Shown here: positions 2,602 to 35,310 of the stretch, piece after piece
Layout: each line of letters starts with the position of its first letter
Numbering within the stretch: the stretch's first letter is position 1
Virus record (IMG/VR): IMGVR_UViG_3300025151_000135
Location: 1-35,310 of that record
Origin: a virus
Direction: 5' to 3' (one strand)
Length of the DNA stretch: 35,310 bases
Translations under genes and position numbers: made by a program
The notes under the pieces: generated by a model
What the model saw: the letters and a program-made list of their open reading frames with translations, nothing else
What the model was told of the DNA's origin: nothing
Databases searched by the model: none

Positions 2602-2788
2602 TCAGAAGAAATACCAGTCAAATCGCCGATATATGGCGTGGGCATCATTAGCTATGATATTAGTCACTTGTATAGCGGTACTTGCGTTTCCGAGCCGTTT
2701 TGAGCCAGCTGAGAGTATTTTAATGATGTTGTTAGGGTCATTAAGTGCAGTAGTGGCAGCGTATTTTGGATTTAGTCATAAGAAATGA
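2585..2788 (+). CDS. Small two-helix membrane protein, 67 aa (holin-like)
   Basis: After a charged N-terminus (residues 1-15) come two hydrophobic segments, about residues 17-35 (ASLAMILVTCIAVLAFPS) and 44-63 (ILMMLLGSLSAVVAAYFGF), and a short basic end, SHKK. Small size, two helices and a basic tail are typical of class II holins or membrane-anchored phage peptides. A clearer GTA-type holin is encoded at 4016-4390, so this may be a holin partner or antiholin. It overlaps both neighbours by a few bases. Confidence 0.6.
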   Translation: MTQIVDQKKYQSNRRYMAWASLAMILVTCIAVLAFPSRFEPAESILMMLLGSLSAVVAAYFGFSHKK

Positions 2789-3324
2789 AGGGCAAACAAT
2801 ATAACATTATTTATGCAGATCCACCGTGGAGCTACAAAGAAAATTGGGGCAACGGTGCAGTTCACCATCATTATGATTCCATGACCGCTAAAAGTATTGC
2901 GGAACTTTCAGTGCAAAACATTGCCGATGATAATTGTCACTTATATCTCTGGTACACCAATTCGTTTGTGAGAGAAGCCCATGCCGTTTGTGATGCTTGG
3001 GGCTTTACATATAAACAAACGCTAACGTGGGTTAAACAGTATTCAAACAAAAACATTGAAATGGGGTTGGGTTATTATTTTCGAGGAGCAACCGAACACG
3101 TTTTGTTTGCAGTAAAAGGCAAATTACCACGCTTGCGAAAAGATTTGAAAAACGTTATAGAGACAGAAGGTAGTGCAGTTTATGAAATTAACAGCCGTAA
3201 GCACAGCGAAAAACCGCAAGTATTCAGGGACATCATTGTGCAACATTCTGGCGATCTGCCAAGAATAGAGCTATTTGCAAGAAATAAAACAGAAGGTTGG
3301 GATGTTTGGGGAAATGAAGTTTAA
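2785..3324 (+). CDS. MT-A70 family adenine methyltransferase
   Basis: The product carries the MT-A70 hallmark DPPW at residues 12-15 (IIYADPPWSYKE), followed by LYLWYTNSF, a GYYFRGATEHVLFAVKG block typical of the family, and a C-terminal RIELFARNKTEGWDVWGNE. Phage members methylate adenine N6 in DNA. At 179 aa it is a minimal catalytic domain without a separate recognition domain. ATG 2785 overlaps the previous stop by 4 nt. Base use differs visibly from its T/G-rich neighbours: more A and C, CAC and AAA codons. This suggests separate acquisition. It probably marks phage adenines against restriction. Confidence 0.88.
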   Translation: MKGKQYNIIYADPPWSYKENWGNGAVHHHYDSMTAKSIAELSVQNIADDNCHLYLWYTNSFVREAHAVCDAWGFTYKQTLTWVKQYSNKNIEMGLGYYFRGATEHVLFAVKGKLPRLRKDLKNVIETEGSAVYEINSRKHSEKPQVFRDIIVQHSGDLPRIELFARNKTEGWDVWGNEV

Positions 3325-11255: not shown

Positions 11256-11608
11256 GTAAACGTTTATTAGATTATGATCCTATAACTCGTACTCAAACAT
11301 GGCATGAGTATGATGAGGTTAACAATGTAACCACGATTGCAGAGGTGCAAGACGTAGAGCCAGCATTAAATTTGAACAAAGCTGTTCAAAATTATGATGT
11401 AGGTGGAGCTAAAGGATTGAATGAATATTCTAAACAAGGCATCAAAAATGATTGGTGGCACGTTGCGTCTATACCTAATTCAGTAATCATCAAATGGAAA
11501 AAAGAGAAAGGCATTGATATTTTTAATAAAAATCAATGGAATGAAGTAAAAAAACTCTTGAACGATAGCGAATACGCATATTTGAGAACTGGAACGGGGC
11601 GTGTCTGA
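11252..11608 (+). CDS. Conserved phage protein, 118 aa, downstream of capsid
   Basis: The product starts MSKRLLDYDPITRTQTWHEYD and carries KNDWWHVASIPNSVIIKWKKEKGIDIFNKNQWNEVKKLLNDSEYAYLRTG near the end (read here in parts). This ending recurs in podoviruses beside DUF5309 capsid genes, where the proteins are of unknown function. ATG overlaps the previous gene by 4 nt, and the next gene starts 8 nt inside it. It is probably part of the head module, possibly structural. Confidence 0.6.
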   Translation: MSKRLLDYDPITRTQTWHEYDEVNNVTTIAEVQDVEPALNLNKAVQNYDVGGAKGLNEYSKQGIKNDWWHVASIPNSVIIKWKKEKGIDIFNKNQWNEVKKLLNDSEYAYLRTGTGRV

Positions 11609-12947
11609 ATTATTATTAGATATACATAACGCACTACAAAATAAAGACGTAAAATTTGCTGGAGCAGCATTGCTTGAGCATTTTTATGATAATCCTGATG
11701 ATCCAGAAGGATTAGTGTTATTAGCTCGGTTTTTTATAGACGGGGGTAAAGCTCCGTTTGCCTATCCTATAGTAAAACAAGCCGTATTACAGAAACGCAC
11801 TTGGCGTACTTTAATGATGTTAGGTGCGACAGAAGCAGTATTACAAACCCCCCAAAAAGCGGTAAAAACCCTAAAAACGGCATTAAAAATGATGCCAGTA
11901 ACAGAACCGCCTAACCATAAAGCAATGATTTACCGATTAATAGCTAATGCTTATGTGCAAGGATTTAACTTTGCAGAAGCAGAAAAGTGGGCAAAAAAAT
12001 CATTAGATATCGAACATCACGCACAGGCTCATACTGCGTATGCGTTTGCTAAATTACATAAAAGAGAATGGCGAGAAGGTTGGTATCATTATCAATTTCA
12101 ATTAGGTCATGCTGATTTTAGAGATAAACATGATTATGGTTTACCGGAGTGGCAAGGTGAGAAAGATGCAAAGTTATTAGTATACGCAGAACAAGGGTTA
12201 GGCGATCAACTAGCATTTATGAGTGCGTGTCCTATTAAACCTACTCAATTAAATTGTAATAAAAAATTAGAAACATTATTTAAAAAAACCTTTCCTAATA
12301 CCCAGGTATTTGGCAAACAATTTGATAAACAGGTTAATGAACCGATTATTGCAACGCATCAAACGTCTATGGCTACAATGATGCAATGGTCAGAAATGAA
12401 ACCTAGAGGAGCATATTTACAATTAGTTCCAGAAAAAATAGCTATGTGGAAAGGTTTATTATCGACATTAAAAGAAAAAATAAATATTGGCATAGCGTGG
12501 ACAGGAGGCATGGCTGGGTCCGATGGCTGGAGGAATAGAAAATTAGAACTCGAACAACTGTTGCCAATATTAGAATTACCAGTAAATTTTATATCCTTAC
12601 AATATAAAGACTATTCGGAAGATATTTTAGAATTATTAAAAACACGCGGAATAAAAATACATGATTTCCCGTGGGGAACAATGTCTCCGGATTATGAAGA
12701 TACCGCAGCATTAGTAAATTGTTTAGATGCGGTCGTTTGTGTACCAACTACAGCCTATCATTTAGCCGGAGCATTAGGAAAACCCGCATTTGTAATAGTG
12801 CATGATAATCCGCATTGGCATGAAGGAGTTGAAGGTGATTGTCCGTGGTGGGAAACGGTGGAGTTTTATCGACGGCCACAATTAGGCGTAGAAGGAGCAA
12901 TTAAAGCAGTCAGGAATCGAATTCGGGGTAAATTTTTACAGGATTAA
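11601..12947 (+). CDS. TPR-glycosyltransferase (GT-B, GT9/GT41-like)
   Basis: The start is GTG 11601. The 448-aa product has an N-terminal helical repeat region (about 1-190) with TPR-like periodicity (AEKWAKKSLDIEHHAQAHTAYAFAKL in parts). Its C-terminal GT-B half contains VYAEQGLGDQLAFMSA, NIGIAWTGGMAGSDGWRNRKL, FISLQYKDYSEDI and a nucleotide-sugar region, DAVVCVPTTAYHLAGALGKPAFV. This fits TPR-linked glycosyltransferases related to heptosyltransferase or O-GlcNAc transferase. A sugar transferase inside the head module may glycosylate virion proteins or host surface glycans. The substrate is not predictable. Confidence 0.75.
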   Translation: MSELLLDIHNALQNKDVKFAGAALLEHFYDNPDDPEGLVLLARFFIDGGKAPFAYPIVKQAVLQKRTWRTLMMLGATEAVLQTPQKAVKTLKTALKMMPVTEPPNHKAMIYRLIANAYVQGFNFAEAEKWAKKSLDIEHHAQAHTAYAFAKLHKREWREGWYHYQFQLGHADFRDKHDYGLPEWQGEKDAKLLVYAEQGLGDQLAFMSACPIKPTQLNCNKKLETLFKKTFPNTQVFGKQFDKQVNEPIIATHQTSMATMMQWSEMKPRGAYLQLVPEKIAMWKGLLSTLKEKINIGIAWTGGMAGSDGWRNRKLELEQLLPILELPVNFISLQYKDYSEDILELLKTRGIKIHDFPWGTMSPDYEDTAALVNCLDAVVCVPTTAYHLAGALGKPAFVIVHDNPHWHEGVEGDCPWWETVEFYRRPQLGVEGAIKAVRNRIRGKFLQD

Positions 12948-12949
12948 TT

Positions 12950-13672
12950 ATGAGAATATACATAGGGGTAGATCCAAGACAACCAGTAGCGTATAACGTA
13001 TTACATTGGTCAATAGTGCGTAGATCATCAAAACCGGTAGCAATAGTGCCGTTAGTATTACCAGCTTTGCCAATAACCAGAACTGGATTAACCGATTTTA
13101 CTTACAGTCGATATTTATGTCCTGCTTTAAGTGGATATCAGGGTATTTCAGTATTTTTAGATGCTGATATGTTAGTGTTAGGAGATATACAAGAGTTACA
13201 ATCGTTTGTTAATGGTCAACATTCAGTATATGTGCGTAAAAGCGAAAATCAATTTGAATGGCCGTCATTAATGGTGTTTGACAATGCTAAATGTCAAAAA
13301 TTAACAACTGAATATATAGAAGATCAAACAAGTAACCCACAATCATTTGAATGGGCAGAATCAGTTGGTGATTTACCTGAAGAATGGAATTTTTGTGTTG
13401 GGTATGAAAAAACAGATGAAATCCCAAAATTAGTACATTATACTGCGGGGATACCGGATTTTTCGGAAACTAAACATTTAGACTATGCAGGAGAATGGTT
13501 AGCAGAAAAAGAATCAATGACAAGTAATTGCAGTTGGTTAGAGCTAATGGGCGATTCGGTTCATGCAGATTTAGTGCTTCAAGGGATACAGGAGCGTAAA
13601 AAAACATGGCAATTACGACATACGCAGAACTCAAAACAGCAATCGCAAACTGGACAGCCAGAAGCGACTTAA
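12950..13672 (+). CDS. GT8-like glycosyltransferase (GT-A fold)
   Basis: The 240-aa product begins MRIYIGVDPRQPVAYNVL. It contains the metal-binding DxD motif as DAD (residues 71-73, in ISVFLDADMLVLGDI) and a C-terminal WNFCVGY...LVHYTAGIPDF block, as in family-8 enzymes. It follows the TPR-glycosyltransferase by 2 nt, so the pair may work in sequence. The last 22 codons (13606-13672) overlap the next gene out of frame, giving a Gln/Lys-rich tail not typical of the family. The role is virion or receptor-glycan modification. Confidence 0.75.
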   Translation: MRIYIGVDPRQPVAYNVLHWSIVRRSSKPVAIVPLVLPALPITRTGLTDFTYSRYLCPALSGYQGISVFLDADMLVLGDIQELQSFVNGQHSVYVRKSENQFEWPSLMVFDNAKCQKLTTEYIEDQTSNPQSFEWAESVGDLPEEWNFCVGYEKTDEIPKLVHYTAGIPDFSETKHLDYAGEWLAEKESMTSNCSWLELMGDSVHADLVLQGIQERKKTWQLRHTQNSKQQSQTGQPEAT

Positions 13673-25187: not shown

Positions 25188-25317
25188 GAAGAATCAGTTA
25201 AAAGCGATTGGCGATTTCTGCCGGTCTATTTATTTTTGGATTATATTGTTAGTGACGTTAACGTGTATTTGTGGGTATTTAGTGGGTACGTTGTTGTGGT
25301 GGACGTTTGAAATTTAA
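25162..25317 (+). CDS. Small membrane protein, 51 aa (holin-like)
   Basis: ATG 25162 lies inside the preceding gene, out of frame by design (26-nt overlap). A basic N-terminus (MVRLKTLDKKNQLK) is followed by one long hydrophobic segment (about residues 21-47, YFWIILLVTLTCICGYLVG). It ends the late operon, and its stop overlaps the convergent NinG-like gene by 4 nt. N-terminal charge and one long helix fit a small holin, pinholin or late membrane factor. Confidence 0.5.
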   Translation: MVRLKTLDKKNQLKAIGDFCRSIYFWIILLVTLTCICGYLVGTLLWWTFEI

Positions 25318-25808
25318 CTAATGTTCTGTAATGCCCAATGTGTCCAATGTTCACGCAATTCGTTCTCTTGAGCTTCTATGTCTTGCCAATAGGTAGGATT
25401 TTCACGTTGTTTAATTAACTCTTGTAGTTTTTCTTGTAGATGTTCAATCATTTCCTCATATTGTACGCGACTGATTTTACGCGACGTATTGGATAATTGA
25501 CGTAACTCATCAACTACTTCGGAACCATACGTTTTAAGCATAAAAGGAAAATATTCCGCACCGTTGCCACCCAGGTTAATGTTGCACCGGTAACACTGAG
25601 GGTGAATATTACGAAGATCCCACGCGGTAGCATTACCTTGTGCTTTCGGGATAAAGTGACCAGCTTGCATTTCTTTATAATGTCTAGTGTGACCGCACGT
25701 TACGCATGAGCAATTATCGTCAAAGTCTGAACCGCGTAAACGAACATATAAACTGGTTAACTTCCATAACTTATTGCGTAAAGACGTAATTGTTTTAGTT
25801 TTGGCCAT
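25314..25808 (-). CDS. ninG: NinG/Rap-like recombination protein
   Basis: The 164-aa product has the NinG pattern. It has a basic N-terminus (SLRNKLWKLTSLYVRLR), a zinc-type CSCVTCG pair, QAGHFIPKAQGNATAWDLRNIHPQCYRCN with the second Cys pair, and a helical C-terminus (MIEHLQEKLQELIKQR). In lambda, NinG (Rap) is a structure-specific nuclease that resolves recombination intermediates. It is the last gene of the leftward block. The P-like gene upstream recalls the lambda P-nin order. Confidence 0.85.
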   Translation of the reverse strand: MAKTKTITSLRNKLWKLTSLYVRLRGSDFDDNCSCVTCGHTRHYKEMQAGHFIPKAQGNATAWDLRNIHPQCYRCNINLGGNGAEYFPFMLKTYGSEVVDELRQLSNTSRKISRVQYEEMIEHLQEKLQELIKQRENPTYWQDIEAQENELREHWTHWALQNIS

Positions 25809-26244: not shown

Positions 26245-26871
26245 TTACATAATTCCTACAACTTTATGCGTTTGAATAGACAAACGCCATTGTGGGTTGT
26301 TTAAACAATATTGTACGGTTATTTTGGCATTGTCGTAAAAATGGTCATTATCTTTAGGTTGCAAATAAAAGTGGTTAAAAGAATAATTAGCAAAAACATC
26401 TGGTGATATAGTCTGTTGTGGGTAAACTAATTTTAATTCATTGCCAGAGGTAACTTTTACGTTAGCTGTTTTAGGAGAAACAGTAACCCAATCAACATCA
26501 GCAACGATGGGATTCGACCCGTTGGTTTCTATTGCAGTAAAATAATTACATTGTTTTAAGTCATTAACTAATTCACTAGTAATTTGTAAAGTGGGTTCAC
26601 CTCCCGTAAAAACCACAAATTTGTCACTATGGTCTACGCCCCATACGTCCTCTATTTTTTTAACTAATTCGGTAGCACTATATTCACCACCGTTTAAACC
26701 ATCGGTTCCGACAAAATCGGTATCACAAAAAGAACAAGTAGCGGTATCTCTATCAAGTTCGCGACCACTCCAAAAATTACAGCCCGTGAATCTAACAAAC
26801 ACGGCTCGTTTGCCAGCATTAAAACCTTCTCCTTGTAAAGTCAAAAACAGTTCTTTAATCTTAAACACCAT
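26245..26871 (-). CDS. queE: 7-carboxy-7-deazaguanine synthase, QueE
   Basis: This radical-SAM enzyme converts carboxy-tetrahydropterin to 7-carboxy-7-deazaguanine (CDG), a step towards preQ0. The 208-aa product has the QueE cluster motif CX14CX2C (Cys31, Cys46, Cys49), preceded by LTLQGEGFNAGKRAVFVR. FTGGEPTLQ follows, a SAM contact, and the C-terminus is QTHKVVGIM as in canonical QueE. ATG 26871 is preferred over the upstream in-frame TTG. It overlaps the DpdA gene by 11 nt without its own SD, so both are made together. QueD, FolE and QueC are absent, so precursors must come from the host. Confidence 0.92.
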   Translation of the reverse strand: MVFKIKELFLTLQGEGFNAGKRAVFVRFTGCNFWSGRELDRDTATCSFCDTDFVGTDGLNGGEYSATELVKKIEDVWGVDHSDKFVVFTGGEPTLQITSELVNDLKQCNYFTAIETNGSNPIVADVDWVTVSPKTANVKVTSGNELKLVYPQQTISPDVFANYSFNHFYLQPKDNDHFYDNAKITVQYCLNNPQWRLSIQTHKVVGIM

Positions 26872-27616
26872 GACAATCAAACAATTCTAAATTTAATTGA
26901 TTACCGGATGTACCAGACCACACACTAGCTTTGGCATGATTTTCCAAGCGATCCATAATGATAGCTGCTCTAGCAACAGGCGAATAAGGTGCATAAGCTC
27001 CTTTCCACACATTATCACGACAAATATTTCGAGCAAGGTGAGTACTGTCGGCTGACGCTAAAGGTAAATGGGCTAGTACGCTAGGATCTAACATCCGAAG
27101 CCCATGCAATTTAACAAAAGGTCGGCCACTAGAATCACAAATATAATTTAAAATTTCTTTGATGCGATTCCACCATGTTTTATTAGCTATTGTTGAAAAT
27201 TGACCACTACTTCCTAATGCGATGCGGGGATAGTTATCTATCAAACGTTTCAATCTATCGAAACTTTCATGCAAATGAAACACGGGAACGCCAAAATGTG
27301 CAAAAGGCCATTCATCCAACAAATCATCGTTATCTTTCTCGTTGCCATCAATAACGTCTGGGATGCAAGCCCATTCGCATCCAGGGTGTTTCAACCAATG
27401 GTCAACCCAATCGTAAAACTTTGACCAATCAGTAACAGGTTCACCTTGTCGCCACGCCGAAAAAGCACCATTGTCCAAAACAAAAGTACGACAGACTTCA
27501 GCTAACACTTTAATTTGGTCTGGACGGTGAAACGACACCATAGCATCGCGGTTGGCCATTGCTTTCACAACATTAAGTATTTCGCCAGAAAGGGGTGTTC
27601 CATGATAACAAATCAT
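26861..27616 (-). CDS. dpdA: DpdA-like DNA guanine transglycosylase
   Basis: The 251-aa product matches phage DpdA proteins, TGT-fold enzymes that replace guanine in DNA with a 7-deazaguanine. Visible landmarks are CYHGTPLSGE (3-12), FHRPDQIKVL (29-38), VLDNGAFSAWR (46-56) with an Asp at 48, WACIPDVIDGN (82-92) with Asp87, IALGSSGQFS (132-141), FVKLHGLRML (167-176) and LASADSTHLARN (187-198). It is shorter than bacterial TGTs, as usual for phage DpdA, and no zinc-binding Cys cluster is evident. It overlaps queE, giving a compact modification cassette. Which base is inserted (preQ0, CDG or a derivative) cannot be read from the sequence. Confidence 0.88.
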   Translation of the reverse strand: MICYHGTPLSGEILNVVKAMANRDAMVSFHRPDQIKVLAEVCRTFVLDNGAFSAWRQGEPVTDWSKFYDWVDHWLKHPGCEWACIPDVIDGNEKDNDDLLDEWPFAHFGVPVFHLHESFDRLKRLIDNYPRIALGSSGQFSTIANKTWWNRIKEILNYICDSSGRPFVKLHGLRMLDPSVLAHLPLASADSTHLARNICRDNVWKGAYAPYSPVARAAIIMDRLENHAKASVWSGTSGNQLNLELFDCHGV

Positions 27617-27912
27617 TGTTTATTCTCGTTTTGTTTATGTGTTTTCTTCCATTTTTCGTATTTGGTGGATACCGTATGTGTTCCCTGTAGGTTTTCATCT
27701 CCGAATACGGGAGAGAATCTAGGTAAGTTTTTGACGATTTTGTTGGCGTTTATTTGGGCTTCTTCTGCGGTTCTGTAGACTCCCAGATTCTTTTTGGTGT
27801 TGCGATCCCAAAGCGTATACCGCCATGTTTTGTTCCCTATACTGCTTTTGCTAATAGTAAATTTACCATTATTACTCGCCATCCAGTATTTACCTTTAAT
27901 TGTCCATTTCAT
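27613..27912 (-). CDS. Small basic protein, 99 aa, unknown
   Basis: The product begins MKWTIKGKYWMASNNGKFTIS. It carries a strand-rich, single-domain fold with WRYTLWDRNTKKNLGVYRTAEEA, a helix (QINANKIVKNLP), then a Lys-rich tail. This pattern occurs in small phage proteins of replication regions, without known role to me. Its ATG overlaps the P-like gene stop by 4 nt and its stop overlaps the dpdA start by 4 nt, so it is firmly in the operon. Confidence 0.6.
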   Translation of the reverse strand: MKWTIKGKYWMASNNGKFTISKSSIGNKTWRYTLWDRNTKKNLGVYRTAEEAQINANKIVKNLPRFSPVFGDENLQGTHTVSTKYEKWKKTHKQNENKQ

Positions 27913-28328
27913 AGGTCGTCTTTAGAACAACCTAGTAAGATTGCTCGTAACTCCTTGACCTTTTCAATATTCTCCTTCAGTTCTTCCTCGCTCGGTTCGT
28001 GAGTTAATTGGGGGACATATTCTTGTCTCGATTGCCACCCTTCACCGGCGAAACACATTTTGCGAAATTTAGGTAATGACGGTGGCCAATCCTCCCCACT
28101 TTCTACCACATTCCGAATACCACGTTTTATGTGAACTGGTTTCAAATCATGTAATCCCACTATCCAACTGGTACAAGGATCCTCGCCGTATTGAGACACG
28201 AATTTACTACCGTATAACTCAGTCAAAGTTACCCAAAGCGTAGATATTGTCTCTGTGGGCAGCCTTGGCTTTTTCTCGTACTCGCTCGACGGCTGATTGT
28301 TTTTTATTAGATTCTGTATTCGCTCCAT
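27909..28328 (-). CDS. Replication protein P-like helicase loader
   Basis: The start ATG 28328 has AAGGAAG 9 nt upstream and is preferred to an upstream in-frame ATG at 28379. The 139-aa product carries LWVTLTELYGSKFVSQYG ... WIVGLHDLKPVHIKRGIRNVVESGEDWPPSLPKFRKMC (read in parts). That resembles the lambda P family, whose members deliver host DnaB helicase to the origin. The call relies on the WPPSLPKF pattern and gene order. It overlaps the upstream gene by 110 nt out of frame. Confidence 0.65.
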   Translation of the reverse strand: MERIQNLIKNNQPSSEYEKKPRLPTETISTLWVTLTELYGSKFVSQYGEDPCTSWIVGLHDLKPVHIKRGIRNVVESGEDWPPSLPKFRKMCFAGEGWQSRQEYVPQLTHEPSEEELKENIEKVKELRAILLGCSKDDL

Positions 28329-28557
28329 ATCGGCAATCTTCCTTTTTATAAACTGTGAGCCATTCCGACTCCATGGCACTTTCGAGAAGCAACACTGGAT
28401 CGTATCCTTCCAAGCGAAACCGTTCTAGTTTATTCAAAAACATACGTTGGCTTCTTATTGTAAACTTTTTGGTCTTTTCTTCTCGCCGGTAGGCAACAAA
28501 ATCCTCCCACAATGCCACCGGCAAATAATCGGGTGGATCTAATATCTCGTTTTTCAT
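28219..28557 (-). CDS. Possible replication initiator-associated protein, 112 aa
   Basis: ATG 28557 has a strong SD (AAGGAGATAAC). The product begins MKNEILDPPDYLPVALWEDF. It has the pattern W-x3-hRR...K...(N)KLERFRLEGYDPVLLLESAMESEWLTVY, seen in C-terminal domains of phage replication proteins (O/DnaD-type). It lacks an evident DNA-binding N-terminus. With the P-like gene it suggests a host-helicase-dependent replication strategy, consistent with no phage polymerase. Its last 110 nt overlap the P-like gene. Confidence 0.6.
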   Translation of the reverse strand: MKNEILDPPDYLPVALWEDFVAYRREEKTKKFTIRSQRMFLNKLERFRLEGYDPVLLLESAMESEWLTVYKKEDCRYGANTESNKKQSAVERVREKAKAAHRDNIYALGNFD

Positions 28558-28566
28558 GTTATCTCC

Positions 28567-29181
28567 TTAAAACATTTGTCGTTGCACTGGTACACAACCC
28601 CCAGAATCATATCTTTGGGTTTTACCTTTTGGATAAGGTTCAATGGGGTAATTTAAACTATCAAGCAATTCACGTTTTTGTCTTTTATTACCACAAAAAT
28701 AGACGTATCTATGTTTCCTTGGGCGTTCTACCTGCGGCTGGCCAGATGGCTGATGACGATTGTGAACATTGGTAAGATAACAATTTTCTGGATCAGTTCG
28801 TTTAGCACTCAATCCTGTGTAGATAAAATTTGTTGCTTGATAGATATACCCCACATGATGCTGTGCGGTATCAGCATAGCTCACCACAATTTTAGGCGTT
28901 GGTAACAATTTTAACGAATGAGCTATCAAATAACTGGCTTCATTTTTTTTGTTATTTTCTAAACAAAGTCGGTTCAATTCTAAAACGTCATGCCGATATT
29001 TTTCCCCACAAATTCCTTCACACAAAGATGGAGAAGCTGGCAACCCATAAGTAATCACGCCTGTTAAATCATTTTCAATAAAAAGTCCAAATGAAAAACT
29101 AATAGACGGTAAGCGTTTGGCATAATGTTTAAACTTAAGCCAATCATATGTTTCCCAATTTTTAATAGATTTTACTTTCAA
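28567..29181 (-). CDS. mom: Mom-like DNA adenine modification protein
   Basis: Mu Mom, a GNAT-fold enzyme, converts adenine in DNA to a carbamoylmethyl derivative that blocks many restriction enzymes (established). The 204-aa product carries the family pattern. It has FGLFIENDLTGVITYGLPAS (31-50), the VLELNRLCL block (66-74), ASYLIAHSLKLLP, IVVSYADTAQHHVGYIYQATNF (98-119), and IYTGLSAKRTDPEN after it. The start codon is TTG 29181, with GGAGG 5 nt upstream; no ATG is available in frame. A short frame overlaps the start, and a structured leader precedes it, recalling the post-transcriptional control of Mu mom. Cofactor and exact product are unproven here. Confidence 0.82.
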   Translation of the reverse strand: MKVKSIKNWETYDWLKFKHYAKRLPSISFSFGLFIENDLTGVITYGLPASPSLCEGICGEKYRHDVLELNRLCLENNKKNEASYLIAHSLKLLPTPKIVVSYADTAQHHVGYIYQATNFIYTGLSAKRTDPENCYLTNVHNRHQPSGQPQVERPRKHRYVYFCGNKRQKRELLDSLNYPIEPYPKGKTQRYDSGGCVPVQRQMF

Positions 29182-35192: not shown

Positions 35193-35310
35193 TTACTTCA
35201 CGGAGAACAATTCGCCACGATCAACAAATACTTGTTGGCGGTTTTTATAGGCGATAGCTTTTACTTTTTGCCAATGGGGAAAAGATACCGTGTAAGATTT
35301 CCCGTTTAGT
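35193..35310 (-). CDS. 3' part of the ORF that crosses the circular joint
   Basis: This is the continuation of the frame that starts at 56 on the minus strand. Bases 35299-35310 duplicate 1-12, so the unique part is 35193-35298. It ends with TAA at 35193-35195, and the C-terminus is QQVFVDRGELFSVK. No family is recognised. Confidence 0.6.
   Translation of the reverse strand, partial: LNGKSYTVSFPHWQKVKAIAYKNRQQVFVDRGELFSVK

Follow-up and report, generated by a model that had tools for sequence, protein, structure and literature searches.

Work on 7-deazaguanines in phage DNA has so far dealt mostly with complete pathways or with isolated dpdA genes whose status is unclear, and a 2019 survey divided phages into three groups: full-pathway, DpdA-only and DpdA-less (PMC6884629). 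Escherichia phages CAjan and 9g represent full preQ0 or G+ cassettes; CAjan encodes FolE, QueD, QueE and QueC together with a DpdA protein of 306 aa. In Salmonella phage 7-11 and Pantoea phage MED16, which encode dpdA only, dADG was present at very low levels (0.02% and 0.13% of G, respectively) (PMC6884629, PMC8306585). One cellular queuosine-pathway enzyme is QueE of Burkholderia multivorans (PDB 4NJG-4NJK). One more phage nucleoside, dCDG, was reportedly described by Cui et al. 2023. DpdA, QueE, lone DpdA and dCDG are therefore all already known. However, neither a recurrent dpdA-queE unit nor a graded series of partial cassettes was found described in the literature covered, which left the 2023 follow-up out of scope.

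The sequence analyzed here, referred to below as the window, is an entire IMG/VR virus record (35,310 bases). Judged from its sequence, the window DpdA is a member of the compact subfamily (about 250 aa) that usually goes by the name of singleton DpdA. It shares this subfamily and reliance on the host pathway with phages 7-11 (39% local match), MED16 and BTP1, whereas no pathway gene lies beside dpdA in those phages and queE appears coupled to it in the window. Compared with CAjan and 9g, the window has the same DpdA and QueE function classes and conserves both catalytic Asp residues, but its DpdA is shorter (251 aa) and only remotely similar, and QueE is its only pathway protein, FolE, QueD and QueC being absent. 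The window QueE is a full-length homologue of the Burkholderia protein with the same Cx14CxxC motif, but it is phage-borne and encoded beside dpdA.

Genome context of the dpdA-queE pair

The 12-mer TTCCCGTTTAGT occupies positions 1-12 and 35299-35310 and has no other copy in the record; a terminal match of this length is expected by chance about once in 17 million. Because this repeat occurs at both ends only, the record probably represents a complete genome, whose ends may be cohesive over these 12 bases. The source phage, probably marine, encodes an SU10-type portal and capsid, and further genes include a terminase, a glycosyltransferase-like gene and a YqaJ exonuclease. A near-identity DNA search with bases 1-25000 gave no match among named phages. 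Structural genes were 94-98% identical in contigs L191 and L200, suggesting at the sequence level that the source phage, or one very close to it, occurs more than once.

The pair lies in a minus-strand block in the order mom, O-like, P-like, 99-aa ORF, dpdA, queE, 114-aa ORF and NinG/HNH. The dpdA gene (26861..27616, ATG start, 251 aa) encodes a compact DNA-guanine transglycosylase homologue, and queE (26245..26871 from its ATG; 211 codons if an upstream TTG at 26880 is the start) a predicted radical SAM CDG synthase. The end of dpdA overlaps the queE ATG by 11 nt (26861..26871), likely reflecting translational coupling. On the other side, the 99-aa ORF (27613..27912), which had no Pfam or PHROG match, overlaps the dpdA start by 4 nt; the possibility that it is a mini-QueD was dropped, as neither PF01242 nor our own QueD profile matched it. 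Upstream of it on the same strand are a P-like helicase loader (27909..28379; PHROG 109, 2.8e-7), an O-like replication initiation protein (28219..28557; PHROG 678, 1.4e-9) and a Mom-like DNA modification gene (28567..29181; PF25680, 2.2e-35; PHROG 1384, 2e-54), and a NinG/HNH endonuclease (25314..25808; PF05766, 2.6e-18) is located downstream.

The Mom-like gene, 0.95 kb upstream of dpdA, was absent from the original prediction and is a second anti-restriction candidate in the block. This 35-kb phage thus carries two different predicted DNA hypermodification systems, Mom-like and dpdA-queE. An MT-A70 methyltransferase at 2785-3324 is a further DNA modification gene, and a C5-methyltransferase-like ORF with a weak match lies at 340-999.

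No match to FolE, QueD or QueC was found in the record, either with Pfam profiles (PF06508, PF01242 and PF01227) or with our own profiles at E<=10, and none of the genes scanned matched QueF, for which no dedicated profile was used. These results bear out the original prediction that two recognizable genes overlap by 11 nt while FolE, QueD and QueC are missing. The pathway in the record is likewise partial, as expected if the host is relied on for the other steps, a contribution that we infer.

Features of the two predicted enzymes

On sequence, QueE can be assigned clearly to the CDG synthases of the Cx14CxxC type. It scored 291.5 bits against NCBIfam TIGR04508 (queE_Cx14CxxC; curated cut-off 240), its best PDB match was the Burkholderia multivorans enzyme over the full length (E=3.8e-65), and the radical SAM Cys motif is C31-x14-C46-xx-C49.

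DpdA is 49% identical to a protein of Pseudomonas phage Epa33 and 44-46% identical to that of Lederbergvirus BTP1, and it matched PHROG 887, annotated as "queuine tRNA-ribosyltransferase", at 4e-65. Profile scans gave no Pfam or NCBIfam match, and it is therefore not a canonical TGT; the PF01702 match and the TGT zinc motif CxCxxC are both absent. When alignments of the window DpdA and of DpdA1 (CAjan/9g type) were compared by hhalign, they matched with a probability of 99% (E 6.7e-18). In this comparison window D48 aligned with the DpdA1 invariant D63 (LDSGAF) and D190 with the invariant D206 (VDSSS), residues which we take to correspond to the catalytic Asp pair of TGT. The original prediction had turned in part on whether the catalytic Asp residues are kept; both are present on alignment, and D48 and D190 are invariant in 78 homologues.

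An AlphaFold2 model of DpdA had a mean pLDDT of 90.9. Foldseek placed archaeosine TGT (1iq8/1j2b) among its top matches (probability 0.99-1.00, TM 0.48-0.51), with other TIM barrels scoring equally and no match at E<=0.001. Neither the DpdA-alignment profile nor the DpdA1 profile recovered a TGT from PDB sequences; the divergence is too great for a search by sequence.

At six positions the window clade differs from residues that are 87-99% conserved in the subfamily: H3C, H24D, Q43R, W113F, N193H and G199C. The first three also occur in the QueE-less contig L006; N193H and G199C are near the catalytic D190, and W113F adjoins the invariant H114. Such substitutions could have shifted the base specificity of the window-clade enzymes. 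A charge switch following GSSG (E/D/Q) was also considered as a correlate of QueE and was rejected, as it does not track QueE pairing.

Partner genes across the compact DpdA subfamily

Five viral contigs encode a DpdA that is 62-77% identical to the window protein. In all four with 72-77% identity (L002-L005) queE overlaps dpdA, with junction overlaps as in the window in L002, L003 and L005, and the most distant (L006, 62%) has no queE beside dpdA. The window DpdA groups with those of L002-L005 in a clade with an SH-aLRT support of 99. Within this clade the window and L002 share a Cx14CxxC QueE, and the QueE of L003-L005 is of a different subtype (25-28% identity); in L003 and L005 it matched TIGR04349, the gamma type, at 335-338 bits (cut-off 300). 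The occurrence of two unrelated subtypes in one DpdA clade indicates that the partner gene was exchanged while the pairing was kept. A third subtype, E. coli-like, is found upstream of dpdA in L032, L036, L040, L044 and L064, and three subtypes beside dpdA show that the pairing was made repeatedly.

The capsid protein of L003 is 80% identical to that of the window, placing both in the same phage group. In L003, exactly dpdA and queE lie between the homologues of two window genes, 11601-12947 and 12950-13672. The same two genes follow each other directly in the window (3 nt) and in L191, L193, L197, L200 and L201 (6-57 nt). As a control, 80 capsid-related viral loci (747 kb) were searched for DpdA, QueE, QueD and QueC, and none contained any of them.

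We then considered the subfamily as a whole, with about 230 loci surveyed (locus counts rather than events, including some near-duplicates). QueD was called by PF01242 and an iterated profile, which pick up short QueD proteins. The DpdA-anchored set comprised 84 viral and 80 cellular loci. Among the viral loci, 62 had no nearby pathway gene, 10 had QueE, 10 QueD, one QueC and QueE, and one QueC; pathway genes were absent from 76 of the cellular loci, and the remaining four had QueD. The preQ0 transporter family YhhQ adjoins dpdA in 12 loci. The QueE-anchored loci with a small DpdA (n=53) were divided into about 18 with QueE only, about 25 with QueD in addition, 4 with QueC in addition and 6 with both. 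FolE was never beside a small DpdA in the surveyed loci, and among 35 whole records searched it was found in none and QueC in three. The partner set of compact dpdA may therefore be none, QueE, QueD, QueD+QueE, QueC+QueE, QueD+QueE+QueC or YhhQ. Partial sets are common in this subfamily, and the incomplete pathway of the window is no peculiarity of this phage.

Several arrangements in these loci deserve mention. A dpdA of the same family overlaps or abuts queD in Caulobacter phage DMCA (L271, 5705-6726) and a YhhQ-type preQ0 transporter gene in Vibrio phage BUCT006 (L275, 4001-5271). The QueE beside dpdA and queC in L083 (2964-3605) has an odd motif, CxxxC followed by 13 residues and then C, whereas the usual cluster motifs are CxxxCxxC or Cx14CxxC. 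In L050 (4711-5112), L067 (4108-4521) and L288 (924-1262), dpdA lies beside a short QueD homologue (about 110-135 aa) with an HGH motif that lacks the usual preceding Cys, and whose catalysis may differ.

When the partner genes were mapped on a tree with 96 DpdA sequences, the minimum number of changes was at least 18 for QueE presence, 12 for QueD and 7 for QueC. The QueC-bearing loci L300, L301, L302 and L305 nest with QueC-less L313 and L319, and QueC-bearing L333 nests among QueC-less L320, L346 and L347; DpdA identities in these groups are 56-75%, and about 70% for L300, L301 and L305 against L319 and L313 and for L333 against L346, L347 and L320. Of these, L319 has QueE only and L300 QueE+QueC, and L346 has QueD+QueE and L333 QueD+QueE+QueC. 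QueC-bearing cassettes inside QueC-less clades suggest one shared product, with QueC supplied by phage or host, and the simplest reading of these sequences is that this product is preQ0 or ADG.

Proposed inserted base and alternative roles

We consider it reasonably probable that dpdA-queE is a two-gene accessory cassette in which QueE acts as a booster and preQ0 or ADG is completed by host QueC. The predicted reaction of DpdA is the replacement of guanine in phage DNA, after replication, by a 7-deazaguanine base. The host folate/queuosine pathway (FolE, QueD and QueC, host QueC being assumed) would supply the precursor, and phage QueE, probably translationally coupled to DpdA, would increase the flow through the CDG-forming step in the infected cell. 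The final base would most likely be preQ0 or its hydrated form, ADG, and its likely role would be resistance to host restriction. We infer the enzymatic activity, DNA as the target, the identity of the base and the anti-restriction role alike. The presence of dADG in phages 7-11 and MED16, which encode dpdA only, supports this reading; both are on distant branches of the subfamily, outside the window clade (homology search, DpdA tree), and no dpdA knock-out was found in the literature for compact DpdA.

Another candidate, which we regard as unlikely, is that the window-clade DpdA is a CDG transglycosylase and dpdA-queE a complete minimal dCDG cassette, requiring host CPH4 only and bypassing QueC. 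The product could then be the same as in the phages of Cui et al. 2023, in which dCDG is reportedly the nucleoside formed. The composition of the pathway sets fits a CDG product, as they often end at QueE: such sets without QueC account for about 43 of the 53 QueE-anchored loci (about 18 with QueE only and 25 with QueD+QueE) and outnumber the 10 with QueC. QueC is also lacking in records of 6-65 kb searched over their whole length, the tight dpdA-queE overlap suggests coupling of a product with its user, and the clade-specific DpdA substitutions point in the same direction. If this were true, QueD+QueE+DpdA cassettes without QueC would be dCDG pathways needing only host FolE. However, QueC is present in near relatives of QueC-less members, and other members carry a preQ0 transporter, or QueC without QueE. 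Moreover, dCDG was assayed in MED16, and only dADG and traces of dPreQ0 were reported (PMC8306585). The original prediction held that the genome does not say which base is inserted; comparison softens this, as relatives with QueC or a preQ0 transporter, and the gain or loss of QueC among DpdA proteins of about 70% identity, favor a preQ0-type base over CDG.

It is rather improbable that the transglycosylase acts on tRNA or protein, or that the cassette raises host tRNA queuosine in favor of phage translation. The TGT superfamily fold is consistent with such a role (although the Foldseek matches do not separate archaeosine TGT from other TIM barrels), as is the suggestion of a tRNA role by Hutinet et al. 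for phages with preQ0 genes and no DpdA (PMC6884629). However, the lack of a Pfam TGT match and of the zinc motif argues against it, dpdA shares its replication block with an adjacent Mom-like gene for DNA modification, and the protein aligns with CAjan DpdA, whose inactivation abolished DNA modification (PMC6884629).

That the two genes are decayed or inactive passengers seems very improbable: modification is low in the singleton-DpdA relatives measured, but both frames are intact, the catalytic Asp and Fe-S Cys motifs are conserved, the pair is 77% and 52% identical to that of an independent contig in which every motif is retained, and dpdA was re-paired repeatedly with different QueE proteins. 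We give hardly any credence to QueE as an inhibitor of host division independent of base synthesis, for which the moonlighting of E. coli QueE as a division regulator is a precedent (PMC11142719), since the window QueE is of the Burkholderia type and the pairing of dpdA with three QueE subtypes points to a shared enzymatic function.

DpdA pairs that are about 70-75% identical and differ by QueC make the inserted base directly testable. The graded series of partner sets shows which pathway steps phages choose to reinforce, and it suggests that a lone DpdA gene is a functional system dependent on its host.
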